From contig NZ_PTQW01000018.1 of assembly GCF_004343725.1 (NCBI RefSeq), positions 1 through 64,000 of the forward strand: DNA of 64,000 bases. Reading direction: 5' to 3'. A model generated the notes under the pieces. That model did not search any database. It was given only the letters and a program-made list of their open reading frames with translations, and was not told the origin of the DNA. The position numbers were made by a program, and so were the translations under genes. Position 1 is the first letter of the stretch. Every line of letters starts with the position of its first letter. The DNA is from Treponema sp. J25 (GTDB lineage: Bacteria > Spirochaetota > Spirochaetia > Treponematales > Breznakiellaceae). Shown piece after piece: positions 24,385 through 42,962 of this stretch.

Positions 24385-25275
24385 CTATTTCCCTACAGCG
24401 CCCATGCTGACCCCTTCCATAAGGTATCTATAGAACAACACAAAAAGAATAAGGGTGGGAAGAGTAGAAACGAAGGCCCCTGCCATTAAAACACCAATTC
24501 CTCGGAAAGGATCACCCCAGCCAGCAGTAAATCGTACCAGAGCAATAGGTAACGTGAGTTTGTCCGGGGAATTAAGTACTAAAAGGGGCCAGAGGAAACT
24601 ATTCCAAGAACCTATAAATGTCATAAGAGAAAGAACGATAAGGGCTGGTCGCACAAAAGGCACTACTATCGAAATCATAAAACGAAAACGAGAACAACCA
24701 TCGATCCAGGCCGCATCTTCAAGGTCTCGCGAAATCCCAAGCATATACTGTCGGAGCATAAACACACCAAAGGTACCCCCAAGGCCGGGAATAATAAGCG
24801 CAGAAAAAGAATCCATCATACCCAGAGCATGAACAATAAAATAATTGGGAACTAAAAACAAAATCCCGGGGAAGGCAAGAATGGCGATATATGCCCAAAG
24901 TACAATTTTTTTGCCACGAAATTCGAGCCGGGAAAGAGCATATGCTGCGGGGACACAAATAACTATCGTCGCAATGATAGAAAGGGCTGCCACAATCAAC
25001 GAGTTCTGGATACCTTTAAGAACACTAATTCCACTGGCAGGAGCAAAAAGAAGTTTATAATTCTCAAAAGAGATTGTTTCAGGTATCCATCGGGGGACTC
25101 GTTCTGCCGCTGCTAGCTGAGAATCTTTAAGAGAGGTAACAAACATCCAAATAACAGGAGAAAACCAGAGGAGACAAAAAATCCACACAAGGATTGATTT
25201 AATCCAGACCCATTCTTTCTTATTGAATCCTAAACGACGCCGTCGTTTTTTAAGGAGCCCCGTTTTTTGTTCCAT
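24385..25275 (-). CDS. CUT1 ABC permease, MalG type
   Basis: Inner-membrane permease (about 296 residues) with six TM helices. The EAA loop is LEDAAWIDGCSRFRFMISIV. ATG 25275 is preferred because GGAGGAG lies just upstream; an earlier ATG at 25293 lies inside the end of the preceding permease gene. It is the last gene of a minus-strand importer operon (binding protein, MalF-type, MalG-type). Arabinan-degrading genes lie next to it, so arabino-oligosaccharides are a reasonable but unproven substrate. No ATPase gene is present. Confidence 0.92.
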   Translation of the reverse strand: MEQKTGLLKKRRRRLGFNKKEWVWIKSILVWIFCLLWFSPVIWMFVTSLKDSQLAAAERVPRWIPETISFENYKLLFAPASGISVLKGIQNSLIVAALSIIATIVICVPAAYALSRLEFRGKKIVLWAYIAILAFPGILFLVPNYFIVHALGMMDSFSALIIPGLGGTFGVFMLRQYMLGISRDLEDAAWIDGCSRFRFMISIVVPFVRPALIVLSLMTFIGSWNSFLWPLLVLNSPDKLTLPIALVRFTAGWGDPFRGIGVLMAGAFVSTLPTLILFVLFYRYLMEGVSMGAVGK

Positions 25276-25276
25276 A

Positions 25277-26182
25277 TCACATCTCCTCCGCATTTTTTAT
25301 AGAACGGGTTAAACCAAAAAGTTGAATCAATGCAAATATAAGAACCACCGCAAAAATATACCAGGAAATAGCCGCAGCTCTTCCTAATGCTTGTACATTA
25401 ATTCCGGTAGAATACAGGTAATGGACCATCGTTCTGGTACTACCTGCTGGGCCCCCGCCCGTAAAGAAATACACTTGGTCGAAAAGACCAAAGGCTAAAA
25501 GAACCTGTCGAACCACATCAAAAAAGAGAACATTCCGAATCCATGGCAAGGTAACATGAATAAAACGAAGCCAGGGACCTGCTCCATCCAACTCTGCAGC
25601 CTCGTATTGTTCTTTGGGTATCCGTCGCAATGCTCCTAAATAGAGAAGAACGCTAAAACCAACAATCCACCATACGGTAACAAAAATAATGATAGCCCAC
25701 GCCCGACTAGTATTTTCAAACCAGGAGACCGTTTGACTAATAATTCCTAACTTGTGCAAATAGTAATTTGCAAGGCCCCCTGGATGGGATGCAAAGATCC
25801 ATTTCCAGGTAGTAAGAATTCCCACAGAACCAAAAAAGGTCGGCGATACCAAAGCCACAAGGATCCACAATTTCCCGTAAATATTTTGATTTAAGAGACT
25901 AGCAAAAAGAAGCCCCACTATAATCACCAAGGGGAAACTAATAATCGCGAAAACAACCGTATTTTTTACCGCAAGCCAGAATTTATCATCCGTAAAAATT
26001 CTGACAAAATTTCCAAAACCTATAAAAGATTTATTTCCCAAAAGACTCCAATTATAAAAACTAATAACGCCGTTTATCACAAGAGGAATTACTATAAAAA
26101 GGAGGAATAGCGCCAGATGGGGCAACAAAAACAACCAGGAACTCATTTCTTTCCTAAGGGCATAAGCCGATTTCTTTTTCAT
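25277..26182 (-). CDS. CUT1 ABC permease, MalF/UgpA type
   Basis: Inner-membrane permease of 301 residues, six TM helices, with EAA loop YEAAELDGAGPWLRFIHVTL. Its stop lies 1 bp before the preferred start of the MalG-type gene, implying translational coupling. A stable hairpin separates it from the binding-protein gene upstream, as in malE-malF regions, and would allow the binding protein to be made in excess. Confidence 0.92.
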   Translation of the reverse strand: MKKKSAYALRKEMSSWLFLLPHLALFLLFIVIPLVINGVISFYNWSLLGNKSFIGFGNFVRIFTDDKFWLAVKNTVVFAIISFPLVIIVGLLFASLLNQNIYGKLWILVALVSPTFFGSVGILTTWKWIFASHPGGLANYYLHKLGIISQTVSWFENTSRAWAIIIFVTVWWIVGFSVLLYLGALRRIPKEQYEAAELDGAGPWLRFIHVTLPWIRNVLFFDVVRQVLLAFGLFDQVYFFTGGGPAGSTRTMVHYLYSTGINVQALGRAAAISWYIFAVVLIFALIQLFGLTRSIKNAEEM

Positions 26183-26220
26183 GGAAACACCTCAAAAAAT
26201 ATATACCCCTACTACACAAA

Positions 26221-26238
26221 GGGGGAGCGAGCTCCCCC
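26221..26238 (-). promoter_or_regulatory. intercistronic hairpin after the binding-protein gene
   Basis: Perfect stem GGGGGAGC / GCTCCCCC with a 2-nt spacer lies between the binding protein and first permease. On the minus strand it is followed by TTTG, too short for full termination. Partial termination or mRNA stabilisation is likely. Confidence 0.6.
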
Positions 26239-26256
26239 AATTCTTACTTTAGAGGG

Positions 26257-27534
26257 CTAGTGGGTTGCCCAGTAATCATTCAGAATAGTCTGTACCGCCT
26301 TAGCAGCCTTGTCCATTGCTTCTTCGGGACTCAATTTTTTAGTAAAGAGACAATCTTCGAGATACACCGCTATTTCATCCTGAACTTCCGATATATAGGG
26401 GAACATCTGGAAAGATTTCACATACTGAACCTGTTGAGCTACTGTCCAAATATGAGGAAGCTTCTCTTTCAGTTCCTTCCCTTCTGCAATAGACTTACGA
26501 GACGGAGTTTGACCTGCGGCATACCAGTCAATCATATGATCCCAAAGGTATTTTACCCAGCGCATGGCTGCTTCTTTTTTCTTTGCATCCTTCAGCATAG
26601 TATCGGTGAGCGCAATAACATGGGATCCCCCAAATACGGCTTTGGTGGTACCTAGCTGCGGGGCGACTGCATATCCGAAATCTTTCCCTAACAGGTTCTT
26701 CCAGGAATTGATTGTCCAAATGCCGGTAATAAGTACGGAAGCATCTCCCGATTCAAAAGCAGGACCTGGATCAACAATTCCCGAAGGAATAATATTTTTC
26801 TGCTGGAGTTCGAGCAAGAATTTCAGCACTTCTACACCCGCCTTTTGGAAAGCCGGAGCCTTAAAGTCGGGAGTTAAGAGGTCTCCCCCAAACTGCCACA
26901 AAAGATGGGTCCAAATCCAGGTCCAGTTCATGTTCTCATAGTAAGGAGTAACCCCTTTTGGCGTTACTTTTACCAGAGCTTCCATGGCTTTTACGAATTC
27001 CTCCCTTGTATACGGGGGTTTCTCTGGATCAAGACCTGCTTTACGGAAATTCGCCTTGTTGTACGCCATGTAGAAAATCCAAACATCGAGGGGTATTCCT
27101 ATCAATTTACCTTTATACTCAAGTCCTGAAAGAAGATTAGGATAGATATCATTTACATCGATCCCATATTTTTTTAACTCATCTTTAGTAAATCCAGAAA
27201 ACTGATCCAGATACAAGGGCATATCAAATTTTCGGATCAAAAGAACCTCTGGGGCAGTTTTGGTAGCCACACCGGTAGAAAACTTTTGCTTATACTCCGT
27301 AGAAGCTCCTACCACAAGATGGGTTACCTCCACATCAGGATTTGCCGCATTAAAGGCTTGGATAATCTTATCCATGTATGCCCCATCGGCCCCTGAAAGA
27401 GGAGTCATAAAGGTAATCTGGGTTTTACCCCCGCCTGTTGTTTTTTTACCAGTATCTTTCTGCCCCTCAGCAAAAAGACTAACCGATAAAACCGTACACA
27501 AACAACCTAACATTGCCCGTTGAAATATCTTCAT
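26257..27534 (-). CDS. extracellular solute-binding protein family 1
   Basis: Binding protein of 425 residues for the second CUT1 importer. The signal peptide ends SLFAEGQKDTGKK without a lipobox cysteine, the same junction style as the binding protein at 7928-9565. The fold motifs of MalE-like proteins are visible: a segment FNAANPDVEV near residue 65 and GDASVLITGIW near 255. It is the first gene of the operon, with a strong promoter at 27718-27746 that shares its upstream element with the other arabinan promoters. Arabino-oligosaccharides are therefore the best guess for its ligand. Confidence 0.9.
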   Translation of the reverse strand: MKIFQRAMLGCLCTVLSVSLFAEGQKDTGKKTTGGGKTQITFMTPLSGADGAYMDKIIQAFNAANPDVEVTHLVVGASTEYKQKFSTGVATKTAPEVLLIRKFDMPLYLDQFSGFTKDELKKYGIDVNDIYPNLLSGLEYKGKLIGIPLDVWIFYMAYNKANFRKAGLDPEKPPYTREEFVKAMEALVKVTPKGVTPYYENMNWTWIWTHLLWQFGGDLLTPDFKAPAFQKAGVEVLKFLLELQQKNIIPSGIVDPGPAFESGDASVLITGIWTINSWKNLLGKDFGYAVAPQLGTTKAVFGGSHVIALTDTMLKDAKKKEAAMRWVKYLWDHMIDWYAAGQTPSRKSIAEGKELKEKLPHIWTVAQQVQYVKSFQMFPYISEVQDEIAVYLEDCLFTKKLSPEEAMDKAAKAVQTILNDYWATH

Positions 27535-27717: not shown

Positions 27718-27759
27718 ATTGTACGGCACCTTCTGAATACTGTCAAGTTTTTTCTAAAC
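27718..27759 (-). promoter_or_regulatory. promoter of the second ABC operon with TCTAAAC element
   Basis: Minus-strand TTGACA (27746-27741), 17-bp spacer, TACAAT (27723-27718). Six bp upstream of the -35 lies TCTAAAC in plus orientation (27753-27759), with a looser copy TATAGAC ten bp on. The block matches the promoter at 36083-36124 closely, including GTGCCG in the spacer. The leader to the ATG at 27534 is about 175 nt and shows no recognised riboswitch. Confidence 0.75.
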
Positions 27760-27829
27760 TATTATAGACTTTTTTTAATTTTTGCCCTATAATTTGCTAA
27801 AGACCCCAGTAGAAGAAAAGGTAAAATAC

Positions 27830-27858
27830 TTGTATTTTAGTTTTAGATATACTATCAT
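27830..27858 (+). promoter_or_regulatory. candidate promoter of the first ArsR-type regulator
   Basis: TTGTAT (27830-27835), 17-bp spacer, TATCAT (27853-27858), about 40 bp before the ATG at 27900. Match to consensus is moderate. Together with the divergent promoter it accounts for the 365-bp intergenic stretch 27535-27899. Confidence 0.4.
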
Positions 27859-27899: not shown

Positions 27900-28817
27900 A
27901 TGATCCATTTAAAAGACATACGGGAAGGAACAAAGATTTTTTTAGCCCTGGGCTCAGAAATTCGGCTTGAAATCTTAGCTCTTATCTCTGAACATGGCAA
28001 ACTTAATATGAATGAACTGGCTGAACTATTGGGGCTTACCAAAGGGGCCCTTACAAGTCATATCCGAATGCTTCAGGAAGCTAATCTTATTCAGATCACC
28101 ACCGCCACAGGGAAACGAGGAACCCAGAAACTCTGTAGTCTTTCCCATGATACCCTTGTACTGGACTTTAAACATAATACAGTTAATGATTCTACGTATG
28201 AAATCGAACTGGATGTAGGATTGTATTTTAATTATGCTATTACTCCCACCTGTGGGATAGCCACGGTAGATCATGTTATCGGCAGCTTTGATGATCCTCG
28301 TTTCTTTAGCCACCCTGACCGAATTAATGCTGGCATCCTCTGGTTCGCGATGGGCTTTGTAGAGTATCGGGTACCCAATTTCTTAAAACCCGGACAAAAA
28401 ATGGAAGAAATGGTAATCAGCATGGAAATTTGTTCTGAAGCGCCGGGGGTTAATGAAAACTGGCCCTCAGATATTTATTTTCATATCAATAATACCTGTA
28501 TTGGCTATTGGACCAGCCCGGGGGATTTCGGATCTCCTAAGGGAATGTTAACCCCTTCATGGTGGTACAACAATTTGAATCAATATGGCCTGCTCAAAGT
28601 TCTTACCATAAATCATGAGGGGACTTTTATTGATGGTATTCAGATTTCACCGATTACTATCGATGATCTCGACTTAAATCATCAAAGTGAAATTTCTCTT
28701 CGTATTAGTTCTCCCAAGGAAGCAGAACATTGCGGAGGGGTAACTATTTTTGGCAAAGGTTTTGGCAATTATAACCAGGGTATACGAATCCTGGTAAAAT
28801 GGGCAGAAGCCACATAA
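27900..28817 (+). CDS. ArsR-type HTH regulator with C-terminal putative sensor domain
   Basis: Protein of 305 residues. The N-terminal ~90 residues form an ArsR-like winged helix (EIRLEILALISEHGKLNMNELAELL, recognition helix LTKGALTSHIRMLQEANLI) without metal-binding cysteine motifs. The remaining ~210 residues form an all-beta-looking domain with conserved DDPRFF, HPDRINAGILWFA and EYRVPNFLKPGQ. It may bind a sugar. A paralogue at 36267-37178 shares both domains. It is divergent from the ABC operon and followed 60 bp later by an intracellular GH43, so it probably controls arabino-oligosaccharide use. The sensor role is inference. Confidence 0.75.
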   Translation: MIHLKDIREGTKIFLALGSEIRLEILALISEHGKLNMNELAELLGLTKGALTSHIRMLQEANLIQITTATGKRGTQKLCSLSHDTLVLDFKHNTVNDSTYEIELDVGLYFNYAITPTCGIATVDHVIGSFDDPRFFSHPDRINAGILWFAMGFVEYRVPNFLKPGQKMEEMVISMEICSEAPGVNENWPSDIYFHINNTCIGYWTSPGDFGSPKGMLTPSWWYNNLNQYGLLKVLTINHEGTFIDGIQISPITIDDLDLNHQSEISLRISSPKEAEHCGGVTIFGKGFGNYNQGIRILVKWAEAT

Positions 28818-28877: not shown

Positions 28878-29843
28878 ATGAACAACAGAGAGGACTTTTC
28901 TGTACCAGGACTTAAGAACCCCCTTATTGTACAAAGGGCTGATCCATGGATCTATCGTCATATTGATGGGTACTACTATTTTACAGCTTCTGTCCCTGAA
29001 TATGACCGTATAGAACTTCGTCGGAGCCGGACTCTAGCCGGCCTTGCCGAGGCCCCCACAAAAGTTGTGTGGTGGAAACATCAAAAGGGCCCTCAGAGCA
29101 AACACATTTGGGCTCCGGAGATTCATTACCTCGATGGCAAGTGGTATATCTATTATGCTGCAGGGCGGGCAGAGAACATCTGGCACATCGAAAAGTATGT
29201 GCTTGAATGTGAAGAAGAAGATCCCATGACAGGCCTGTGGTATGAAAAGGCCCGGATTGAAACAGGGGCCACCCATTTTACTCTAGACGCTACTGTGTTT
29301 GAACTTCGGGGGAAACGATACCTGGTATGGGCCCAAAAGCCAGACGATACTCCTACCGTAAGCAACCTAATGATCGCGGCTCTTAAAAACCCCTGGACCA
29401 TCGAAGGAGAGCCTGTACTTCTTAGTCGCCCTGAATACGAGTGGGAACAGCGGCTTTTTCATGTAAACGAAGGTCCAGCGGTACTTATTAAGCATAACAA
29501 AATCTTTATTACCTATTCAGCTAGCGGGACCGATCATAATTACTGCATCGGCCTTCTAATAGCACCAGCAGAAGCAGATCCTCTTGATCCTTCAGTATGG
29601 CATAAGAACCCAGAACCGGTTTTTAAGAGTTCTGAAAAAAACCATATCTACGGTCCAGGACACAGTTGTTTTACCACCTCCGAAGATGGAAAACAGGATC
29701 TGCTGGTTTACCACGCTCGAGATTACAAGGAAATCAAAGGGGATCCCCTCTATGACCCCAACCGTCATACACGGATCCAAAGAATTTTCTGGACCTCAGA
29801 TGGTATGCCAATCTTTGGAGAACCAATTCCAAACACTCAATAA
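28878..29843 (+). CDS. GH43 exo-alpha-L-arabinofuranosidase, cytoplasmic
   Basis: Five-bladed propeller enzyme of 321 residues without signal peptide. The catalytic triad is D22 (RADPWIYRH), D137 (FTLDATVF) and E198 (VNEGPAV). The start NPLIVQRADPWIYRHIDG and ASVPEYDRIELRRS resemble GH43 subfamily 26, known for exo-alpha-1,5-L-arabinofuranosidases; the subfamily is my recognition, not a computed result. It probably releases arabinose from imported linear arabino-oligosaccharides. It follows the ArsR-type regulator in the same direction and ends at a strong terminator. Confidence 0.85.
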   Translation: MNNREDFSVPGLKNPLIVQRADPWIYRHIDGYYYFTASVPEYDRIELRRSRTLAGLAEAPTKVVWWKHQKGPQSKHIWAPEIHYLDGKWYIYYAAGRAENIWHIEKYVLECEEEDPMTGLWYEKARIETGATHFTLDATVFELRGKRYLVWAQKPDDTPTVSNLMIAALKNPWTIEGEPVLLSRPEYEWEQRLFHVNEGPAVLIKHNKIFITYSASGTDHNYCIGLLIAPAEADPLDPSVWHKNPEPVFKSSEKNHIYGPGHSCFTTSEDGKQDLLVYHARDYKEIKGDPLYDPNRHTRIQRIFWTSDGMPIFGEPIPNTQ

Positions 29844-30049: not shown

Positions 30050-31099
30050 CTATCTAGTCGGCGTAATCAAAGGAATCGTCCCCGCTTCATCATAGGTAAG
30101 ATAATCCACACAAACCGAACGCCGGTAGGATCCACCCCCCGGTAATGTGCCATTATGATAGAAAATGTACCATTTCCCTTTAAACTCAACGATTGCATGA
30201 TGACTGGTGTTGCAGTTTTCCGCATGGTTCATAAGCTTACCCCCTGGAACCCAAGGACCAGTAGGCTTGTCACTCGTGGCATAGACGAGTTGTTCTTCCC
30301 ATCCAGCGGCCCAGGAAAGATAATACCGTCCCTGATATTTATGAATCCACAGGGCCTCGGTAAAAGGCAGTCCCGCAACAAAGGGGAGCAAGAGTTTCTG
30401 GATCCCCACCTTCTCATCGAAGCTTATCATGTCTTCGTTAAGCTTCACATATTTAGGATAGGTGTTGCCAAAATACAGGTATGCCTGCCCATCATCATCA
30501 ATCAGGACAGTAGGATCGATGTCATCCCAGCTCCAGCGGGGCTGACCTGCAAAACGGGTCATTTCTGAGGTAATGAGCGCTTTTCCAAGGGCATCCTTAA
30601 AGGGTCCGGTAGGTTTATCCGCTACGGCTACCCCTATTGCCATTCCTCCCGTCGCCGCCTGTGCCACACTCACGTAGTAATAAAACTTGCCGTTCCGCTC
30701 CACTACCTGGGCTGCCCAGGCATTTCCATCAGCCCACGCAAAATCCTTTACTGACAATACTGGCCCATGGTTCGTCCAGTGCACCATGTCCTGGGTAGAA
30801 TAACAGTACCAGTCGTTCATCACATAGCTTGTCCCACCGGCGGGCGCTTCATCATGCCCTACATACAGGTACAGCGTATCTCCAACCACAAGGGCCGCAG
30901 GATCCGCAGAATAGATATCCCGAATGATCGGGTTTGACCAGGGAACTGATTCCTGTTGCACAGCCTCTGAAGTAACACAGGAAACAAGGAGTAGCCCCAC
31001 AGAGAGGGAGATTGCAACAAATGAAAAATAGCGCCCTCTTTTAAAAAGAGAATACACCCCCAAAATTTCCTTCACATATCTCCATCTGTTCTGTTTCAT
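30050..31099 (-). CDS. GH43 arabinofuranosidase/xylosidase-like lipoprotein
   Basis: Lipoprotein of 349 residues. The N-terminal region is long, with a hydrophobic core near 25-40 and lipobox LVSC. The propeller carries catalytic residues in YSADPAA, DIDPTVLID and FTEALWI, the GH43 base, pKa modulator and acid. C-terminal motifs NCNTSHHAIVEFKGKWYIFYH fit GH43 arabinofuranosidase/xylosidase subfamilies acting on decorated glycans. It is the last gene of a minus-strand operon, 3 bp after the endo-arabinanase, and probably acts at the cell surface. Confidence 0.85.
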   Translation of the reverse strand: MKQNRWRYVKEILGVYSLFKRGRYFSFVAISLSVGLLLVSCVTSEAVQQESVPWSNPIIRDIYSADPAALVVGDTLYLYVGHDEAPAGGTSYVMNDWYCYSTQDMVHWTNHGPVLSVKDFAWADGNAWAAQVVERNGKFYYYVSVAQAATGGMAIGVAVADKPTGPFKDALGKALITSEMTRFAGQPRWSWDDIDPTVLIDDDGQAYLYFGNTYPKYVKLNEDMISFDEKVGIQKLLLPFVAGLPFTEALWIHKYQGRYYLSWAAGWEEQLVYATSDKPTGPWVPGGKLMNHAENCNTSHHAIVEFKGKWYIFYHNGTLPGGGSYRRSVCVDYLTYDEAGTIPLITPTR

Positions 31100-31102
31100 T
31101 TC

Positions 31103-32776
31103 TTAGTCCTTATTCCCAAAGAAATATTCCCCTGTTTCGGGACAGAAAGTAGTAAACGTTATAGTTTTCCGATTCGTATTATCCTTTCGAGCCCAATCTA
31201 CCGCTTCAGAAACAATCCCTTTGTAAGTCCCAATAGGGGAACCACTCGTAGTTTTAAGGATAATCGTAATATTAGAGCCACTCACAGACCATGTCCCAGT
31301 ATAAGCCCCCGAAACAGTACCATCCAAATTCAGAGTTATTGCCACCGAAAGGGTTTCGTTCGCATCTTCTGTATTTACATTGCTACTACTCTGAACTCCT
31401 TCGTAATTGGTAAACTTAGCCCAGGTGGCACCCCGTATGGTATGGATTACCTTATAGGAACCCGACACTTCCTGAACCGTCATCGTTCTGAGGGTTTCGC
31501 CGTAGTATTCATTAGGATTCACGACCGGCCATCCATCTTCAGTAAAGTACAGTTGCCGAACCTGAAGATAAAACCACCAACTTTGTTTGAAATTGGTTCG
31601 GGTATGATGGGCCATAAAAATTTTGCCATTTTGAGCCACAAGGATAGATTGACCACCGGGACAACGCCAACCATATTCCCCACTAAATTGATGGGCCCCA
31701 AGAATTTTATTCCCATACTGATGGGAATCATTCCATGTCAAAGTAGTTAGGTCCTTCCCAGAGGCATCGTAATACGGCCCTGCGATTCCTTGAGATACAG
31801 GGCGACGACCAACCCGCACACTGTAATCGTACCCAAGATCTCCAAGGGAATAAAACAAATAGTAGTAATCTCCATAGCGGAAAAGACAGGCTCCTTCTGA
31901 GGCAACGCCGTTACCACCTGCAATTTGAGTTCCATATCCCCCACTTATTGTATCCGCCGGGTAACCACTTAGGGGCATTCCTGTATCATTATTAAGCCGA
32001 AGTATAGCTATACCCCCTTTCCAGGATCCATAGGTCATCCACATGTCCCCATTAGCATCCCAGATTATCTCAGGATCGATAGCTCCAAAGCCCTTATTCC
32101 AGGAACCGGCTCCCTCGTTCAAACAGTCCGCATCAATGGTTCCAGTGGTACGGGTAAAAGTGTAGCGAACTACCGTGGAACTCGTATACGTATTTGGGTC
32201 ATACTCATGGGCGGGGAGGTATGGCCCTGTCACTTTATCAGCGATTGCAAGGCCAATCCATGCCCGGGGCCGGTTAGCGTTATCTGCCACATCCACAATC
32301 ACGCCATGGTACATATAGTATTTCCCTTTGAATTTTATAACCGTAGGGGCCCAGGTATAGGCTGCATCATCGCTCGTAAAACCACACCAGCTTTTAAGAT
32401 CTTCGTCCCATTTCCCCAGAGCAGGCGTAGAAAGACACTCCCAATTGATAAGATCCTTTGATTTTCGGACCTGAATACCCCCCTGCCAGGTATTACCAAT
32501 ACTTGCATCGGTGGAAAACACATAGTACGTTCCATCATCATCTTGAAATAGCTTTGGATCGTGGGTATTTACCGGCCCCCACGTTGCAGGATTAGTATCC
32601 GTGATAGTTTTTGTGTATTTATCGATAAGAATCGCAGTATCGCCAGTGGAACTGGAATACTCACTGGTAAGACGACAAGCGCCTAGAAATAAAAAGAATA
32701 CCCCTCTTATCAGCATTTTAACCCATCTATTTGTTGTTAGTAGAAAGGGGGAATGAGAAGATTTAACCAATTGCAT
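31103..32776 (-). CDS. GH43 endo-alpha-1,5-L-arabinanase lipoprotein
   Basis: Lipoprotein of 557 residues. ATG 32776 has AAAGGA upstream; an internal ATG at 32716 would give a more typical short signal peptide but lacks a ribosome site. The lipobox is LGAC. The catalytic propeller (about 55-410) has THDPKLF, AIDPEIIWD and SEGACLF, as in endo-arabinanases. A C-terminal beta-barrel module (about 430-557, NLDGTVSGAYTGTWS) matches the extra domain seen in two-domain endo-arabinanases. It would cut arabinan chains into oligosaccharides outside the cell. Confidence 0.88.
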   Translation of the reverse strand: MQLVKSSHSPFLLTTNRWVKMLIRGVFFLFLGACRLTSEYSSSTGDTAILIDKYTKTITDTNPATWGPVNTHDPKLFQDDDGTYYVFSTDASIGNTWQGGIQVRKSKDLINWECLSTPALGKWDEDLKSWCGFTSDDAAYTWAPTVIKFKGKYYMYHGVIVDVADNANRPRAWIGLAIADKVTGPYLPAHEYDPNTYTSSTVVRYTFTRTTGTIDADCLNEGAGSWNKGFGAIDPEIIWDANGDMWMTYGSWKGGIAILRLNNDTGMPLSGYPADTISGGYGTQIAGGNGVASEGACLFRYGDYYYLFYSLGDLGYDYSVRVGRRPVSQGIAGPYYDASGKDLTTLTWNDSHQYGNKILGAHQFSGEYGWRCPGGQSILVAQNGKIFMAHHTRTNFKQSWWFYLQVRQLYFTEDGWPVVNPNEYYGETLRTMTVQEVSGSYKVIHTIRGATWAKFTNYEGVQSSSNVNTEDANETLSVAITLNLDGTVSGAYTGTWSVSGSNITIILKTTSGSPIGTYKGIVSEAVDWARKDNTNRKTITFTTFCPETGEYFFGNKD

Positions 32777-32790
32777 AGGGATTATCCTTT

Positions 32791-32829
32791 CTACCAGGAA
32801 TCTTCCGTTAACAGGAAGACTCCTGGTAG
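32791..32829 (-). promoter_or_regulatory. intercistronic hairpin before the endo-arabinanase gene
   Basis: Sixteen-nt arms 32791-32806 and 32814-32829 pair with one mismatch around a 7-nt loop. On the minus strand it lies between the LamG lipoprotein stop and the ribosome site of the endo-arabinanase. There is no T-run, so RNA stability or processing is more likely than termination. Confidence 0.6.
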
Positions 32830-32837
32830 GAAAATAT

Positions 32838-33590
32838 TTATTTTTTTACCGGGATGCCCTTCATGAGGGCCTGGATTTGTTTGTCCGTGTAGGCCACATC
32901 GGCGATAAGGATCTCATCCATCTTCCCAACAAAGAGGGGATCGGGCCAGTTGCTTGCCCCAATATAGATTCCGTTCTTTACCACCACCGAAGGCAATAGT
33001 TTGGTATACCCAAAGGCGGCCTGCTTTCCATTTACGTACATCGTCATCTTCTGGCCATTCACAGTAATCGCAAGGTGGACCCATTCTTTAGTTGGAAGGG
33101 AAGGTCCTAATACAATCACCGACCCCTGGGGGGCAAAAATATCGGCCCGCATTACTGCTTCGGCGCCGCTAAAACCAAACCACATATCTGCCGTTGCCCC
33201 ATCACCAAAATCGAAGATTCGGGCCCATCGAGGCCACGCCTCGGCATTTACCCAGGCTGCAAAGGTCCATTCTTTTCCTTCGAGGACCGTTGGTTTTAAA
33301 ACGATGTATGTCTCTGCCCCATCAAATACTAAAGCCTTACCAACCTTTCCTTCGGTGGTTTTAGGTGTATTCTGGCTAATTTCCGCATGGTTCCCTTTAC
33401 CAGAACTGTCCTTCAAAACGTTCCCTTCAATTTCATCCATCGTGTAAATTGCCAGAGCGTGTAAATCAAAATCTCCTGGAAGACTTTCCTGGGCAGTTTG
33501 AGCTCCGGAAGCACAGCTTCCTAAAGCCAAGATTGATGCAATAACAAGCCCCATCCAAAGAACTCGGTTTTTATTAGTATAGGTCTTCAT
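32838..33590 (-). CDS. LamG-domain lipoprotein
   Basis: Lipoprotein of 250 residues starting at ATG 33590 behind GGAGG. Signal peptide with lipobox LGSC. Residues about 45-245 form one LamG/concanavalin-like jelly-roll: IYTMDEIEGNVLKDSSGKGN at the start, AFWVN-like AAWVNAEAW, HLAITVNGQKMTMYVNGK, and VGKMDEILIADVAYT at the end. No catalytic residues are recognised. It lies between a porin and two secreted GH43 enzymes in one minus-strand cluster, suggesting a surface glycan-binding role. A second, interrupted LamG lipoprotein lies on the other side of the porin. Confidence 0.85.
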   Translation of the reverse strand: MKTYTNKNRVLWMGLVIASILALGSCASGAQTAQESLPGDFDLHALAIYTMDEIEGNVLKDSSGKGNHAEISQNTPKTTEGKVGKALVFDGAETYIVLKPTVLEGKEWTFAAWVNAEAWPRWARIFDFGDGATADMWFGFSGAEAVMRADIFAPQGSVIVLGPSLPTKEWVHLAITVNGQKMTMYVNGKQAAFGYTKLLPSVVVKNGIYIGASNWPDPLFVGKMDEILIADVAYTDKQIQALMKGIPVKK

Positions 33591-33617
33591 CTCTAACCTC
33601 CACAAAACCTCTCGACA

Positions 33618-33648
33618 ATCGTGGGGCCCTTAAAGGGACGCCCACGAT
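33618..33648 (-). promoter_or_regulatory. intercistronic hairpin after the porin gene
   Basis: Arms ATCGTGGG (33618-33625) and CCCACGAT (33641-33648) pair perfectly and enclose a second small stem around TTAA. It sits between porin stop and LamG lipoprotein start. A TTTTG appears only about 12 nt later, so it is a poor terminator but a good candidate for uneven expression. Confidence 0.55.
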
Positions 33649-33708
33649 CTCTTTACTTAGTACTGCAAAGAACAAAGTACCTTTACGTAACACCCTCAAC
33701 CGTATGTC

Positions 33709-34992
33709 CTAGAACCAGAAGGCAATATTGAGGGGGATATAATGGCTAATAGCCTGAGCGGCACTTTTTGATTCATAGCGATTGAACTGAGCTTGGTACC
33801 CAATCTGGATATAACCATTAGAGAAATTCTTTTTGAGGTACACGTTCGCTCCTGCACCGAGGGCCATGCCAGAGGTTCCGTCGGTAGGTTTGGTTGGGAT
33901 ATAGGCCGCATCGATATTAGTAGAAAAACCCAGATCTCCACTATCACCATCCACATAGCAGCCCACCTGACCAGAAGAATCAGATATATACGTAAAGTTC
34001 GCCCGGAATCCCGCCTGAACCTGGGGAATAGGAAGATCGTACAGCGTATCTAGAACCACCCGATCTAACAGAATTTGCTTTGCTACAGTATGGAAATTAT
34101 TCGCATAAGCAAAACGGTTACCCAGAGCAAGACGGAGCCCCGCCATAGGTCGAAAAGCTCCTGAAAGGTTGATATTATGCTTCATCCCCTGGGTTGAGGT
34201 CTTGTACTGGAAATTATACCCTGCCGCAAGATCAAAGCCGGTACCCATAAAATTGGAACTATCCCCACTAAGGTAGGCTTCTCGTACTACATCATCATCG
34301 CCTTCCCAGTTACTTGCACTATATTGAAGGCCATGGTAATACCCTGCTTTCAGATTTATCCCGATAGGCAAGGTATACTTCACATTGATCTTAAATTGAT
34401 CGATAAGGTTCTGCCAGTAGTTGTTTGCAGGCATGCTCCCCCAACCATCATTGGTTCCCCAGGGTTTAATGGGAAGCCCCGCCAGAATAGAAAGCCCCTG
34501 AACCATCGGTGGTTTAATCTCGACAGCCGTAAGATACTGTCCTACATCCCGGTCCGCCACGTTGCTCGCATAAATAAAGCCCCAGGCCTGATCATAGGTG
34601 ATGTATCCAAAGGCCTGCTCTTCGAATTTACCCGTAAGCACATCCAAATAGGGGGTCACGTTGATTCGTACATTTCCCTGATAAAAGGGAACATCGTCCC
34701 CATAAATGTCGTACCAGGTGTCAAGATCCGCCGCACCAAGACGAATTCCCAAAACAAAATGAATGTTTTGGGAATCCACAAACATGTTTACTTCGGTGCG
34801 TCCACCATACCAGGAACCTTGCCCTGCCCCATATTCAAACTGTTCCCAGCTACCACCCCCACTTTGCCGGGCATAGGTGGTTAACAAATAGTTAGAATAA
34901 TCGGCATACCCGTGAAACGTGACCTGTTGGGCCTGGGCTACCAAGCCAAGGGCTAGCAGCAGGCTAGCCATAATACCTATTCGTTTATTCAT
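33709..34992 (-). CDS. outer-membrane beta-barrel porin, putative oligosaccharide channel
   Basis: Protein of 427 residues starting at ATG 34992 behind GGAGG; an upstream in-frame start would put 13 charged residues before the signal peptide. The signal peptide ends VAQAQQ. The rest shows alternating amphipathic strands rich in Tyr, Gly and Asn, and ends with the terminal strand YIPLNIAFWF, whose last phenylalanine is the usual BAM recognition residue. No homologous family is named with certainty. Its position among arabinan-degrading lipoproteins suggests passage of arabino-oligosaccharides through the outer membrane. Confidence 0.8.
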   Translation of the reverse strand: MNKRIGIMASLLLALGLVAQAQQVTFHGYADYSNYLLTTYARQSGGGSWEQFEYGAGQGSWYGGRTEVNMFVDSQNIHFVLGIRLGAADLDTWYDIYGDDVPFYQGNVRINVTPYLDVLTGKFEEQAFGYITYDQAWGFIYASNVADRDVGQYLTAVEIKPPMVQGLSILAGLPIKPWGTNDGWGSMPANNYWQNLIDQFKINVKYTLPIGINLKAGYYHGLQYSASNWEGDDDVVREAYLSGDSSNFMGTGFDLAAGYNFQYKTSTQGMKHNINLSGAFRPMAGLRLALGNRFAYANNFHTVAKQILLDRVVLDTLYDLPIPQVQAGFRANFTYISDSSGQVGCYVDGDSGDLGFSTNIDAAYIPTKPTDGTSGMALGAGANVYLKKNFSNGYIQIGYQAQFNRYESKSAAQAISHYIPLNIAFWF

Positions 34993-35053
34993 ATACATCC
35001 TCCATCTTTTGTTTTGTGCTCTCAAGAGCAACCGCCATGTAATGATTTCTTTC

Positions 35054-35869
35054 TTACGGAAGTGTCCCGTTATAAAGCTGGGTTACCTCGCTTGCCGAAA
35101 GGGCCCGATCATAGATGACCACATCGTCGAGAACCACCCCCTGGGCCTGCCAGGTATCCTGACCAAACATGATCGAAACCTGGGCAGCGGTAAAGTTTTC
35201 ATAGGCGGTGTCATAGGTTCCCACCGCGGTTCCATTGATATAAAGGGTAGCTACCCCACTGGTATCCATCGTCTCAGTGACATGGAACCACTCACCCGTG
35301 GTAGGCAGGGTGGCAAAGATATCGCCCCAATTGTCAGCAAGGTCGTTCCGGTTACGGGCATAAAAACTCGTATCACTATTCGCTCCATGGCTCACAAAGC
35401 CTTCCCAGGGACCACTACTGGTCTTAAAAATCATGTGGGCCAGGGCGCCCCAACCAGTATTCCAGGTCCCCACCTTGGCCCAATAGAAAATGGTGAAGGT
35501 TTTTCCTACTAGATTATCAGGAAGGGTAAGATAAGCGACATTAAGAACGTTTGAAGCATTACTCAGATTCAATGATTTGTTACGATACCCTATTACATAG
35601 GAAGTACTCCCTGTAGCAGTGGCTGTATTATTGTTTCATGATTCATCATTAAGGTTCTCTTCAAATTGATACACTGCGACAGCCGTAGAATTGGTAAGAT
35701 TGAGAGCAGATGTGGTCTCTGGCGCCTCCTGTGTGGTATTTCCACTACTCCTCCCAATCGTGGGCATCCCACAACCAACCATAAACATTCCAATCCCCAC
35801 CAAGAAAATCGTTCTGGTTAAAACGATTCTGCTAACACCGGGCATATGCCCTCTTGAGCTTTTCTTCAT
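35054..35869 (-). pseudogene. LamG lipoprotein gene interrupted by in-frame TGA
   Basis: From ATG 35869 (AAGGAGG upstream) the frame encodes a signal peptide with lipobox MVGC and the start of a LamG domain, VAVYQFEENLNDES, then TGA at 35638-35636. The same frame continues without shift and completes the domain down to 35054 (NNNTATATGSTSYVIGYRNK, FTIFYWAKVGTWNTGWG, VVLDDVVIYDRALSASEVTQ). Related LamG domains have glycine at the stop position (DSSGN), so GGA to TGA is the likely change. A TTG at 35572 could start the distal part, but without a signal peptide. A sequencing error remains possible. Confidence 0.75.
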
Positions 35870-36082
35870 GCTCAACCTCCTTCGCTTAAGGCATTCATTT
35901 TCTCAAAGGGGTTGATCATTACTAATTTAGGTATTCATGACAGGCAGCATTCTCTGCGACTCCCCCAAACAGAGAACACCTACCTAACTCTAGCTATTTT
36001 TCCTAGCCAACAAGTTTAAATTCAACCGATATTTGTCATGAAAAACCTAAACTAATAACCACAACCCCCTTATTTTTTCTGT

Positions 36083-36124
36083 ATTTTACGGCACATATCG
36101 AATATTGTCAAATTTTTTCTAAAC
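36083..36124 (-). promoter_or_regulatory. promoter of the LamG-porin-GH43 operon with TCTAAAC element
   Basis: Minus-strand TTGACA (36111-36106), 17-bp spacer, TAAAAT (36088-36083), with TCTAAAC at 36118-36124 six bp upstream of the -35. The arrangement and sequence match the promoter at 27718-27759. The leader to ATG 35869 is about 205 nt; nothing else was recognised in it. Confidence 0.75.
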
Positions 36125-36200
36125 ATTTATACAAAAATTTATACCATTAGAATCAGGATGAAAGGGATTAATAAAACAAGAAAATTATCAAAAAAATAGT

Positions 36201-36243
36201 TGCAAAGAAATATTTTATGTACTATTTTATTTATATCTAAACT
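36201..36243 (+). promoter_or_regulatory. candidate promoter of the second ArsR-type regulator
   Basis: TTGCAA (36201-36206), 17-bp spacer, TATTTT (36224-36229). TCTAAAC occurs at 36237-36243, at about the transcription start, which would suit autorepression. Confidence 0.45.
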
Positions 36244-36266: not shown

Positions 36267-37178
36267 ATGATTCATCTGAAGGACATACGGGAAGGGACCA
36301 AAATTTTTAAGGCTTTAGGATCCGCTGTTCGACTGGAGATTCTCTCTCTTCTTTCAGAATACCAGTATCTTAATATGAATGACCTGGCAGAATTGCTTAA
36401 AATCTCTAAAGGAGCGCTAACCAGCCACATCCGAATGTTACAGGAAGCGAATCTCATCGATGTAACCACCGCTATGGGGAAAAAAGGGATCCAAAAGATT
36501 TGCAGCCTTCCGCATGAATCATTAGTAGTGGACTTAAGTAACGACACCATCCCTGAATCGATGTATGAAATAGAACTAGACGTGGGGCTTTTTTTCGATT
36601 TCAAAATCAATCCTATCTGCGGGATTGCTACTATAGAGCATCTTATTGGAAGTTATGATGATCCCCGTTTCTTTGCTCATCCAGATCGGATTAATGCAGG
36701 GATATTGTGGTTTGCATCGGGTTATGTGGAATATCGAATTCCTAATTTCCTCAAATCTAATCAGAAACCAGAAGAACTTATTTTGAGTTTTGAAATAAAA
36801 GCAGAGGCCCCCAAGGGAAGCGACCGGGCTTCGGATATTCTTTTTTCAATTAATGACATTCCTTTAGGAACGTGGTCTAACCCCGTAGAACCGGTTACTC
36901 AAAAAGGGTTGCTCACCCCTACATGGTGGGAACCGACCTGGAGCCAATGTGGATTTATGAAAATCCTTTCCATCCGAGAAAATGGGACATTTATGGATGG
37001 GCTTCAACTTTCTAAGACCACTATTCATGATCTTGGGATTACCTCTACAAGCGACATCTGTTTCCGCATCAGTGTTCCCAACAATTCTGAAACCACCGGC
37101 GGACTTACTCTTTTTGGGAAAGGTTTCGGGAACTACAATCAGGGGATCAAGGCCAAGTTAAAATGGCACCCCCTCTAA
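36267..37178 (+). CDS. ArsR-type HTH regulator with C-terminal putative sensor domain (second copy)
   Basis: Protein of 303 residues, paralogous to the regulator at 27900-28817 along its whole length. The winged helix is nearly the same (AVRLEILSLLSEYQYLNMND; ISKGALTSHIRMLQEANLI), so both may read the same operator. The C-terminal domain keeps DDPRFFAHPDRINAGILWFA and EYRIPNFLK but differs more, especially around residues 175-240. It is divergent from the LamG-porin-GH43 operon and is followed 48 bp later by a GH43 and then GH51. It probably senses a different arabinan-derived ligand; this is inference. Confidence 0.75.
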   Translation: MIHLKDIREGTKIFKALGSAVRLEILSLLSEYQYLNMNDLAELLKISKGALTSHIRMLQEANLIDVTTAMGKKGIQKICSLPHESLVVDLSNDTIPESMYEIELDVGLFFDFKINPICGIATIEHLIGSYDDPRFFAHPDRINAGILWFASGYVEYRIPNFLKSNQKPEELILSFEIKAEAPKGSDRASDILFSINDIPLGTWSNPVEPVTQKGLLTPTWWEPTWSQCGFMKILSIRENGTFMDGLQLSKTTIHDLGITSTSDICFRISVPNNSETTGGLTLFGKGFGNYNQGIKAKLKWHPL

Positions 37179-37226: not shown

Positions 37227-38765
37227 ATGAAACACCAGCGGGAATGTCGAAAAATATCGACTATTACAATACTTAGTTTAGCAGGAGCGGTAAGCATGTT
37301 TTCAGCCTGTGCAGAACTACCCCATCGGATAGACCCGGTTACTCTTAAAAAATCTTCTTTACGTACTGGTGTCTCTGTACACGATCCTTCTATCGTAGCG
37401 GCAGATGGGAATTATTACGTTTTCGGCTCTCATATGGCCTCGGCCGTATCCAAGGATCTTATCAGTTGGCAGCCCTTACACTCGGGAGTTACAAAGTACA
37501 ACAAACTATTCGACAATCTTTTTGATCCAGATTTAAGGGCTTTTAAATATGTAGGACGTAATAGTGAAGGGTCCTATTCGGTATGGGCCCCCGATGTTAT
37601 TTACAATCCCGTGATGGGCAAATGGATGATGTATTTCTGCACCACATCGACCTATATCAAATCTAATCTTTGCTTTGCCACCGCCGACTCTGTAGAAGGG
37701 CCCTATCACTTTCAGGATATTATTCTGTATTCCGGTTTTACACGAACAACCATTAAGGAAACCAATGTGGAAGCGGTTGTAGGCCCAGAAAACACAACTC
37801 GATATTTTCATTTTAATAATTACAAAAATACTCTCTGGCCCAACGCTATCGATCCGGCCCTGTTTTACGATGCAGAAGGACGCCTATGGATGACCTATGG
37901 ATCATGGTCGGGGGGTATTTTCATCTTGGAAATTGATCAAAAAACAGGGTACCCCATTCATCCTAAAGCCAATCCAGCAAAAGGCATTGACCCCTACTTT
38001 GGACGGCATTTAGCAGGAGGGTTACACAACTCAGTTGAAGGCCCTTATATCATCTATGACAAAACAAGTGGTTACTACTACCTTTTTGTATCTTATGGGA
38101 GCCTCCAGAGTAACGGGGGATACCAGATCCGACTGTTCCGATCTAAAAATCCTGATGGACCGTACACTGATAAAAAAGGAGAAACCCTCGATCAAGGGAA
38201 AGCAAACCATACTCCTTACGGAATAAAGCTGATGGGAAACTACAAATTCCCCACCTTTTTACAGGCCTACATGGCACCGGGACACAATTCAGCTTTAATA
38301 AATGAAACTGGTGACATTTTCTTAGTTCATCATACCCGTTTCGATGGAGGAAACGAATATCATGAAATCCGGGTTCGTCGCATGTTCCGTACCAGCGACG
38401 GGTGGGTTGTAGCAGCCCCCTTTGCGTACAACGGGACAGAAAAACTCGCCACTGGCCATACCATAGATGAGGTTTCAGGCTTTTACTATTTTGTCAACCA
38501 TGGAACAACCATTAGCTCGGTAATCGAAGAGGGAAAAGAATATTTCCTACAGACAAACGGACGGGTCCGGGACAACACTGGTCGAGACATTGGTAGTTGG
38601 ACCTACAATCCAACCACCGCAGACATACAGTTAGCATTAACAAACGGCCACTTCGAAGGAGTTCTTATCCAGACCAACGACGAAGCAGGCAACCCAACCC
38701 TTTCACTTACCGCTATCTCTGAAAATAATGAAGCCCTTTGGGGCGTTCAGTATTTACAACCATAA
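37227..38765 (+). CDS. GH43 endo-alpha-1,5-L-arabinanase lipoprotein
   Basis: Lipoprotein of 512 residues (GGAGG upstream; lipobox FSAC). Catalytic residues lie in SVHDPSIV, AIDPALFYD and SVEGPYIIYD. The PGHNSALINETGDIFLVHHTRFDGG stretch is typical of endo-arabinanases. A C-terminal beta module (about 400-512) resembles that of the enzyme at 31103-32776, so the locus has two secreted two-domain arabinanases. It lies between the second ArsR-type regulator and GH51 in one plus-strand operon. Confidence 0.88.
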   Translation: MKHQRECRKISTITILSLAGAVSMFSACAELPHRIDPVTLKKSSLRTGVSVHDPSIVAADGNYYVFGSHMASAVSKDLISWQPLHSGVTKYNKLFDNLFDPDLRAFKYVGRNSEGSYSVWAPDVIYNPVMGKWMMYFCTTSTYIKSNLCFATADSVEGPYHFQDIILYSGFTRTTIKETNVEAVVGPENTTRYFHFNNYKNTLWPNAIDPALFYDAEGRLWMTYGSWSGGIFILEIDQKTGYPIHPKANPAKGIDPYFGRHLAGGLHNSVEGPYIIYDKTSGYYYLFVSYGSLQSNGGYQIRLFRSKNPDGPYTDKKGETLDQGKANHTPYGIKLMGNYKFPTFLQAYMAPGHNSALINETGDIFLVHHTRFDGGNEYHEIRVRRMFRTSDGWVVAAPFAYNGTEKLATGHTIDEVSGFYYFVNHGTTISSVIEEGKEYFLQTNGRVRDNTGRDIGSWTYNPTTADIQLALTNGHFEGVLIQTNDEAGNPTLSLTAISENNEALWGVQYLQP

Positions 38766-38789
38766 AGCGCAGCAAAGAGGAGCATACGA

Positions 38790-40310
38790 ATGAAACACAC
38801 AGCAATCATCAATTTAGATGCACCGGGCCCCACTATAAACAAACACATCTATGGGCATTTTGCAGAGCATTTAGGCCGTTGCATTTACGGAGGTTTCTAC
38901 GTCGGCGAAGATAGCCCTATTCCTAATAAAGATGGTATCCGGCTTGATGTGGTAGAGGCCTTCAAAAGGCTAAACATCCCCAATCTCCGCTGGCCAGGAG
39001 GTTGCTTTGCCGACGAATATCATTGGATGGACGGGATTGGTCCTAAAAACAAGCGGCCCACCATGATCAATACCCACTGGGGTGGTGTTACAGAAAACAA
39101 CCATTTTGGAACCCACGAGTTTATGGAACTCTGCGAACTTTTGGGAGCAGAACCATACATTACCGGAAATGTGGGTTCTGGTACGGTTCATGAAATGAGT
39201 CAGTGGGTAGAATATCTTAATTTTGATGGCCAGAGCCCCATGACCGAACTACGAAAACAAAATGGTCGGGACAAACCCTGGAATGTCCGTTTTTGGGGAA
39301 TCGGGAACGAAAACTGGGGGTGTGGTGGTGGCATGACCCCTGAATATTACGCCGACAAGGCTCGAAATTATTCGGTATATTGTCGGAATTACGGGAATAA
39401 GCGGCTGTACAAAATTGCAGGGGGGCCTAATGTAGACGACTACCGATGGATGGAAACCCTCATGAAGAAGTTAGTATATTGCCCCTCAGGGCTTCCCGAA
39501 GATCGATTCGTCAATGGCATATCCCTTCACTACTATACTTTTGCAGGAAGCTGGGAACAGAAAGGGAAAGCCTTAGAAGCAGACAGCGACAAATGGCTTA
39601 TATTAATGAAAAATGCCTGGCGCATGGATGAGCTCATTACCCGTCATAGCGCTATTATGGATCAATACGATCCTCGCCGAAAAATAGGTCTTGTGGTAGA
39701 TGAGTGGGGCACCTGGCACCAGGTAGAAGAGGGTACCAATCCAGGTTTTCTTTATCAACAAAACACTATTCGGGATGCCCTTTCCGCAAGTCTTCATTTA
39801 GACATCTTCCATCACCATGCCAATCGGGTGGTGATGGCAAACCTAGCGCAGGCGGTCAACGTACTCCAGGCTCCCATCCTTACCGAGGGAGAAAAAATGG
39901 TGCTTACCCCTACGTATCATGTTCTTGAAATGAAAAAGGATCATATGGATGGTACTGCCCTCCCTATCATTTTGAACCCCGAAAATCCTGTGCTAGAATA
40001 CAACAATACAACCTTCCCAGCCCTTTCAATTTCTGCATCTCGAAAAAATGGAAGATTCTTGCTTTCCCTCACCAATATAGATCCCGAGAAATCATACCCC
40101 ATAAGCGTCGATCTGCGGGGTGGAGAGGTACAAAAAATGACTGGCAGAATTCTCACAAGCACAAAGCTTAACGGCCACAATAGTTTTGAAAATCCACACG
40201 AAGTAGAACCTCAAAATTTTACCGATTTCTCCATTAAAGGCGGTACGCTTCACTGCACTATTCCGGCTCATTCATTTATTACTTTTTCTTTTACAAGCAC
40301 GGTAAACTAA
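38790..40310 (+). CDS. abfA: GH51 alpha-L-arabinofuranosidase, cytoplasmic
   Basis: Enzyme of 506 residues with no signal peptide. The (beta/alpha)8 barrel has acid/base E174 in [12 protein letters not shown] and nucleophile E305 in VVDEWGTW, plus the N-terminal [16 protein letters not shown] motif; a beta-sandwich domain closes the protein. Length and spacing agree with bacterial AbfA enzymes. It removes terminal arabinofuranose from imported oligosaccharides. It is 24 bp after the secreted arabinanase and ends at a strong bidirectional terminator. Confidence 0.95.
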
Positions 40311-42847: not shown

Positions 42848-42899
42848 AAAAAACTCCCCCTTTTTACCCAGAAAGCTCATACTAGGCTTTTTTAGGGAT

Positions 42900-42962
42900 A
42901 TTCTAAGGGGGAACTCTATTTTTTGTCAACAAAAACAATTACTATTTTAAACTAATCTAAAC
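42900..42962 (-). promoter_or_regulatory. GH127 promoter with paired T(C/T)TAAAC elements
   Basis: Minus-strand TTGACA (42929-42924), 18-bp spacer, TAGAAT (42905-42900). TTTAAAC (42946-42952) and TCTAAAC (42956-42962) lie 10 bp apart. Their gaps to the -35 box are 16 and 26 bp, one and two helical turns beyond the 6-bp gap at the two other arabinan promoters. Confidence 0.65.

Follow-up and report, generated by a model that had tools for sequence, protein, structure and literature searches.

A candidate 16-bp palindromic operator for two ArsR-type regulators of an arabinan gene cluster in Treponema sp. J25

Several promoters of an arabinan gene cluster in Treponema sp. J25 carry a common element. 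Sequence comparison indicates that this element is a 16-bp palindrome, TTTAGA-N4-TCTAAA, of which the heptamer TYTAAAC is one half plus the following C. The cluster lies in a 64,000-nucleotide stretch of contig NZ_PTQW01000018.1, hereafter called the window. The elements are probably the operators of the two ArsR-type regulators encoded in the cluster, which would then be a one-component arabinan regulon with two paralogous regulators. This operator identity is well supported, because the motif came from genomes with relatives of the regulators and, applied to the window, picked out the right promoters. The original prediction, which took TYTAAAC words to be binding sites of the ArsR-type regulators, is thereby supported as to the regulators, whereas the element itself is the longer palindrome, a site at 27836–27851 has to be added, and the sites at 27.74 kb and especially at 36.1 kb are weak. 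Carbohydrate regulons are usually under the control of AraC, LacI, GntR, ROK or similar proteins, and for sugar regulators of the ArsR type a single case, ArbA (2021), had been predicted. New here are the operator as such, the fact that it is shared across phyla, its tandem and phased layout, and a domain resembling a carbohydrate-binding module (CBM) in the regulators.

Relatives of the regulators were gathered from 80 foreign loci and from related genomes, and their upstream regions were compared. The palindrome TWTAG-N6-CTAWA occurs 9 times upstream of these relatives at a gap of 6, against 0.3 expected, and the same half-sites at other gaps from 0 to 20 occur in 0 to 2 copies each. With the loci correctly stranded, 15 palindrome sites lie upstream of the relatives, including TTTAGAAATATCTAAA and TTTAGATAAATCTAAA. 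When a symmetric 22-bp matrix built from the foreign sites only is run across the window (about 64,000 positions), ranks 1 to 3 fall at the promoters of regulator 2, regulator 1 and the GH127 gene, and a Firmicutes-only matrix selects the same three sites. For each region containing one of these sites (B, E and A in Table 1), the score is higher than in dinucleotide shuffles of that region (p between 0.0005 and 0.0025), and 0 of 60 shuffles of the whole window reach 16.4. The ranking by the foreign matrix and the shuffle tests together identify TYTAAAC as one operator half plus C. It is very improbable that such words are present merely because they occur in AT-rich promoters anyway: although the bare heptamer is at its chance level in the window and 2 of 300 permuted matrices have all three top matches in these AT-rich regions, the three promoters are precisely those chosen by independent foreign matrices, each scores beyond the shuffles of its region, and the palindrome is specific to a gap of 6.

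The pentamers of the consensus at gap 6 are matched at 9 of 10 positions in sites A and B; site E scores 16.9, and the C and D sites are weak matches. Genome-wide, exact TWTAG-N6-CTAWA has 12 copies, against 39 for a reversed control, and none of the 12 is in this cluster; the related pattern TATTTTA-N8-TAWAC has 6 copies, 3 of them within the arabinan cluster. Site B overlaps both the last bases of a likely -10 box, TATTTT (36223–36228), and the region in which regulator 2 starts. Site E fills the spacer from TTGTAT (27830–27835) to TATCAT (27853–27858), a possible promoter of regulator 1; it was missed by the original prediction because it does not contain TYTAAAC. A gap of 16 bp separates site A, centred at about -60, from the GH127 -35 box downstream of it. 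Site C1 overlaps the -35 box of the transporter promoter, is centred at about -39.5 and contains most of the TCTAAAC at 27753–27759; C2 lies exactly 20 bp upstream of C1, with its centre at about -59.5. Site D1 overlaps the -35 box of the 36.1-kb promoter. The low scores at the conspicuous 27.74- and 36.1-kb promoters (9.9 and 9.5, and 3.6 and 6.6, respectively) count against the reading of all these elements as operators, as does the lack of exact TWTAG-N6-CTAWA copies in the cluster. The rank 4 match of the window, at 37812–37827 (12.2), is inside a GH43 gene (37227–38765) and is probably due to chance.

Table 1. Genes, promoters and candidate operators of the arabinan cluster, in window coordinates
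Feature	Position	Strand	Sequence	Score, rank, p	Basis and remarks
ABC transporter for sugar, two permeases and substrate-binding protein (SBP)	24385–27534	-			Pfam BPD_transp_1, SBP_bac_1
Transporter promoter	27718–27746	-	TTGACA-17-TACAAT		Direct reading and promoter score; drives SBP–permease–permease operon
Operator C1, weak	27743–27758		TCAAGTTTTTTCTAAA	9.9, rank 5
Operator C2, weak	27763–27778		TATAGACTTTTTTTAA	9.5, rank 6
Operator E	27836–27851		TTTAGTTTTAGATATA	16.9, rank 2 of 64 kb, p 0.0025
Regulator 1	27900–28817	+			Pfam HTH_5, HTH_24; ArsR-type winged helix plus C-terminal domain of about 210 residues
GH43 enzyme downstream of regulator 1	28878–29843	+			Pfam
Two GH43 enzymes, minus operon	30050–32776	-			Pfam
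36.1-kb promoter	36083–36111	-	TTGACA-17-TAAAAT		Direct reading and promoter score; faces LamG lipoproteins–GH43–GH43 operon, 30050–35870
Operator D1, weak	36108–36123		TCAAATTTTTTCTAAA	3.6, rank 48	Position by homology with C1
Operator D2, weak	36128–36143		TATACAAAAATTTATA	6.6, rank 16	20 bp upstream of D1
Operator B	36226–36241		TTTATTTATATCTAAA	18.3, rank 1 of 64 kb, p 0.0005
Regulator 2	36267–37178	+			Pfam; same architecture as regulator 1; residues 92–303 modelled as CBM6/35/36-like jelly roll
GH43 enzyme and GH51-type alpha-L-arabinofuranosidase downstream of regulator 2	37227–40310	+			Pfam
GH127 beta-L-arabinofuranosidase	40451–42880	-			Pfam
GH127 gene promoter	42900–42929	-	TTGACA-18-TAGAAT		Direct reading
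Operator A	42946–42961		TTTAAACTAATCTAAA	16.5, rank 3, p 0.002

Other descriptions of the motif were tried and rejected. Direct repeats with a 10-bp period (TCTAAACtatTATAGAC) were dropped, as the foreign sites show an inverted repeat; the 10-bp steps result from the nearly self-complementary hexamer TNTANA. De novo palindromic expectation maximisation (EM) over all upstream regions returned AT-rich noise only. Four neighbourhoods of other genomic matches were examined, namely an alpha-amylase/amylo-glucosidase locus (score 15.3), a sigma-54 activator, AsnA with SOR/SNZ, and RnfC-like genes, and from these neighbouring genes the other matches are taken as chance.

The heptamer is placed largely as predicted. 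TCTAAAC is present at 27753–27759 and 36118–36124, with a gap of 6 bp to TGTCAA, the -35 box, in both promoters, which are near-consensus, and the GH127 promoter has TGTCAA at 42924–42929 with TTTAAAC at 42946–42952 (gap 16) and TCTAAAC at 42956–42962 (gap 26). Arithmetically, all these words do fall on the same helix face, as proposed, being spaced in steps of 10 bp, but the pair of heptamers at GH127 together make up a single palindrome, one half each. The fourth TCTAAAC, assigned to the start of the second regulator gene, exists at 36236–36242, one position before where it had been put, and stands 24 nt ahead of that gene's ATG (36267), not in the gene. Judged by frequency alone, the bare heptamer does not stand by the original prediction's own yardstick, because it occurs in the window as often as chance predicts (20 copies, 20.1 expected) and is not enriched near the regulator relatives (33, 43 expected). 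Within the intergenic DNA of the window it is enriched (5 copies, 1.5 expected), and three of the four copies of GTTTAGA-N(0-30)-TTGACA in the 3.18-Mb genome are those at the transporter, 36.1-kb and GH127 promoters.

The resemblance between the 27718–27746 and 36083–36111 promoters, originally put at about 45 bp, is confirmed by an ungapped alignment with 40 identities in 49 positions; this alignment scores 31, and 300 shuffles reach at most 17. The block of -35 box, spacer and -10 box has no further copy in the 3.18-Mb genome with up to three mismatches allowed. Beyond the promoter boxes and operators, the spacers at 27718–27740 and 36083–36105 share TATTC-N5-GTGCCGTA, which within the genome is found only in these two promoters and is absent from L009, a locus whose regulator is 57% identical and whose divergent gene encodes a GH127 enzyme. 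These exclusive spacer letters, the paralogy of the two regulators and the low matrix scores at both promoters are what would be expected if the conserved block were mainly the trace of a duplicated regulator-plus-promoter unit in which a strong sigma-70 promoter was kept, the TCTAAAC words at 27753 and 36118 then not being operator halves. We consider this rather unlikely, since L009 retains TCTATACTATTATAGA at 6 bp from its -35 box, TTGACT, despite a different spacer, and weaker tandem sites at a distance of 20 bp on either side are typical of the family. The L009 sequence is identical to TCTAAACTATTATAGA of the window at 15 of 16 positions; its whole-site matrix score is low.

The genes behind these promoters encode an ABC transporter, four GH43 enzymes, a GH51-type enzyme, a GH127 enzyme, LamG proteins and the two regulators. 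The 36.1-kb promoter is followed first by a LamG lipoprotein gene (35054–35868, minus strand), which starts near 35870 with a good ribosome site before the start and is interrupted by one in-frame TGA (NDES-stop-NNN); it may be a pseudogene or reflect a sequencing error.

The two regulators are paralogues with 61% identity. Pfam HTH_5 matches both (E 3e-9 and 3.5e-8) and 40 of 42 relatives. An AlphaFold2 model built on the 42 relatives (pLDDT 91.9) has an ArsR winged helix at residues 5–87, which compares with CadC and CzrA at a Z of about 12 over 79–80 residues. Neither regulator has a Cys before residue 79, and both score below the cutoff of 55 of the NCBIfam model HTH_metalloreg (45.7 and 44.5). 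Since their DNA-binding helices are free of Cys, they are not classical metalloregulators. ArsR/SmtB metalloregulators such as CadC, CzrA and SmtB share the winged-helix fold but have about 100 residues and bind metal, whereas the window regulators have 300 residues and an added beta domain. Residues 92–303 modelled alone form a jelly roll (pLDDT 92.8), and the nearest folds are CBM6, CBM35 and CBM36, with Z from 9.4 to about 8 (best rmsd 2.9, 124 aligned), moderately above the usual background. This C-terminal domain matches no Pfam family, including no Pfam CBM, and has about 10% identity to CBMs. Its invariant residues W148, E155, Y156, E176, N196 and W221 are binding-site candidates only, and its conserved aromatic residues are W148, Y156, W203 and W221. 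Since a Z of 9 is moderately above background, we infer, rather than conclude, from the modelled fold, the conserved aromatic residues and the gene context that the domain may bind sugar. CBM6, CBM35 and CBM36 are known as enzyme modules, whereas here such a fold would be the putative sensor domain of a transcription factor. The recognition helix, at about residues 47–54, reads KGALTSH in the window regulators and in L009, and NGA[LMI]T.H in most relatives compared; the KGALTSH variant may explain the diverged operators of this lineage.

The foreign sites are concentrated between genes. Sites with a score of 12 or more number 76 in 123 kb of intergenic DNA and 18 in 847 kb of coding DNA, and many of them stand before genes for SBP, GH43 and GH51 proteins. 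The operator code is common to spirochaetes and Firmicutes and goes with arabinan genes. Second sites at plus and minus 20 bp around 59 strong foreign sites have elevated mean scores (z 15 and 7), and partners with a score of 5 or more occur at 12 of 57 and 5 of 57 positions, against a background of 0.7%. At promoters of genes other than those of the regulators, which are predicted promoters, upstream sites cluster near -50, -60, -71 and -80 with helical phasing (Rayleigh R 0.73, period 10.3, n=17); since the loci are mutually related and the promoters predicted, the p-values for spacing serve as guides only. The -10 boxes of promoters with upstream sites are mostly non-consensus. The operator is centred at about -72 in the predicted SBP promoters of three Lachnospiraceae loci (L039, L041 and L047), and L032, L044 and L051 also have it 28 bp from a TTGACA on the opposite strand. 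At several regulator genes the operator overlaps or follows the -10 box of the predicted promoter and at several overlaps the gene start. The GH51 sites of L028, L029, L036 and L054 have positions from +1 to +95. In the clade with MREI-type regulators, GH51 sites follow the start, and repression is suggested there.

These positions lead to a plausible model of regulation, which amends the mode of action originally envisaged in that the regulator genes look repressed and the transport and hydrolase promoters look activated. The regulator would be a dimer in which an ArsR winged helix is joined to a CBM-like domain, the C-terminal domain sensing an arabinofuranosyl oligosaccharide or arabinose, and the dimer would bind the 16-bp TTTAGA-N4-TCTAAA palindrome. 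Sites in or just behind the core promoter of the regulator genes would bring about autorepression. The sites of the transporter, the GH43 operon and GH127 lie at about -40 and -60, upstream of or just overlapping the -35 box, some of them paired in tandem at a distance of exactly two helical turns, and a sugar-bound dimer at these upstream sites would probably help RNA polymerase. Binding, ligand, dimerisation and the direction of regulation are all inferred here, and for direct activation of the structural genes by the regulators we judge the case to be evenly balanced.

ArsR proteins are mostly repressors, and it is possible, though we regard it as doubtful, that the regulators are repressors everywhere, released by sugar, with the upstream sites occluding the -35 box or looping to the sites at the regulator promoters. 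The overlap of C1 and D1 with the -35 boxes, the consensus TTGACA of the promoters and the GH51 sites at +1 to +95 agree with repression throughout, as does the prediction of ArbA as a repressor (PMC8579813). Direct occlusion is unlikely at the GH127 site, 16 bp beyond the -35 box, and at the foreign SBP sites, phased from -50 to -80, and the mostly non-consensus -10 boxes at promoters with upstream sites likewise speak against repression there. Tentatively, we extend the dual reading, with activation as well as autorepression, to a widespread, little-characterised ArsR–CBM-like one-component family that may directly activate the promoters of arabinan uptake and degradation from helically phased, often tandem operators (about -40, -50, -60, -71 and -80) and repress its own gene.

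The closest precedent is ArbA of Caldicellulosiruptor, an ArsR-family regulator of abfA and of arabinoside use, predicted to be a repressor from the positions of its sites (PMC8579813). By description it resembles the window regulators, being ArsR-type and devoted to arabinoside use, and its gene is divergent from an arabinofuranosidase gene, the intergenic region between them holding three predicted sites (PMC8579813). Linkage to arabinofuranosidase genes (GH43, GH51-type and GH127) with sites at their promoters is found in the window and in the relatives. The present system differs from ArbA in having a pair of paralogous regulators, a gene cluster that includes a transporter along with GH43, GH51 and GH127 enzymes, and sites upstream of the -35 box. 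Placement of the repression type, in the 5' UTR or over the promoter, is seen at several regulator genes and some GH51 genes but not at the transporter or GH127, the promoters being predicted. Table 7 of a study of Geobacillus lists an 'ArsR family' gene in the arabinan cluster of strain 56T3 next to genes for an SBP, two permeases and a GH43 arabinanase (PMC4428132); it is like the window regulators in its neighbours, by the annotation alone, the table reporting neither sites nor function. The dual logic proposed here is that of Rv2034 of Mycobacterium tuberculosis, an ArsR-type dimer that binds a palindromic site, represses itself and activates other genes (PMC3338718). Rv2034 shows that an ArsR-type dimer can both repress and activate; the likeness is at the general winged-helix level, and Rv2034 is not a sugar regulator. 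The literature searched contained no other published ArsR-type carbohydrate regulator besides ArbA and nothing relevant on ArsR proteins, either with carbohydrate-binding sensors or in connection with arabinose in rhizobia.

The family is directly testable, as it offers a defined 16-bp site, three strong sites in one cluster, a high-confidence protein model with a likely sugar-binding domain and the clear alternative of activator or repressor, and the regulons of fibre degraders in rumen and gut could then be predicted. A third paralogue, 38% identical, is encoded on contig 28 of the same genome (L008, 3325–6014), divergent from a GH51-type arabinofuranosidase gene as in the ArbA arrangement; this locus has a weak operator match only (10.2 at 5062). 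Three annotated plasmid relatives, in Enterococcus faecalis, E. raffinosus and Priestia megaterium, have no convincing operator adjoining the regulator; the operator thus does not extend to every member of the wider family. In a collection of 259 plasmid records, regulator relatives turn up commonly in Rhizobium, Sinorhizobium and Enterococcus, and one relative in E. raffinosus (L186) is divergent from a gene pair for an MFS transporter and a GH43 enzyme.
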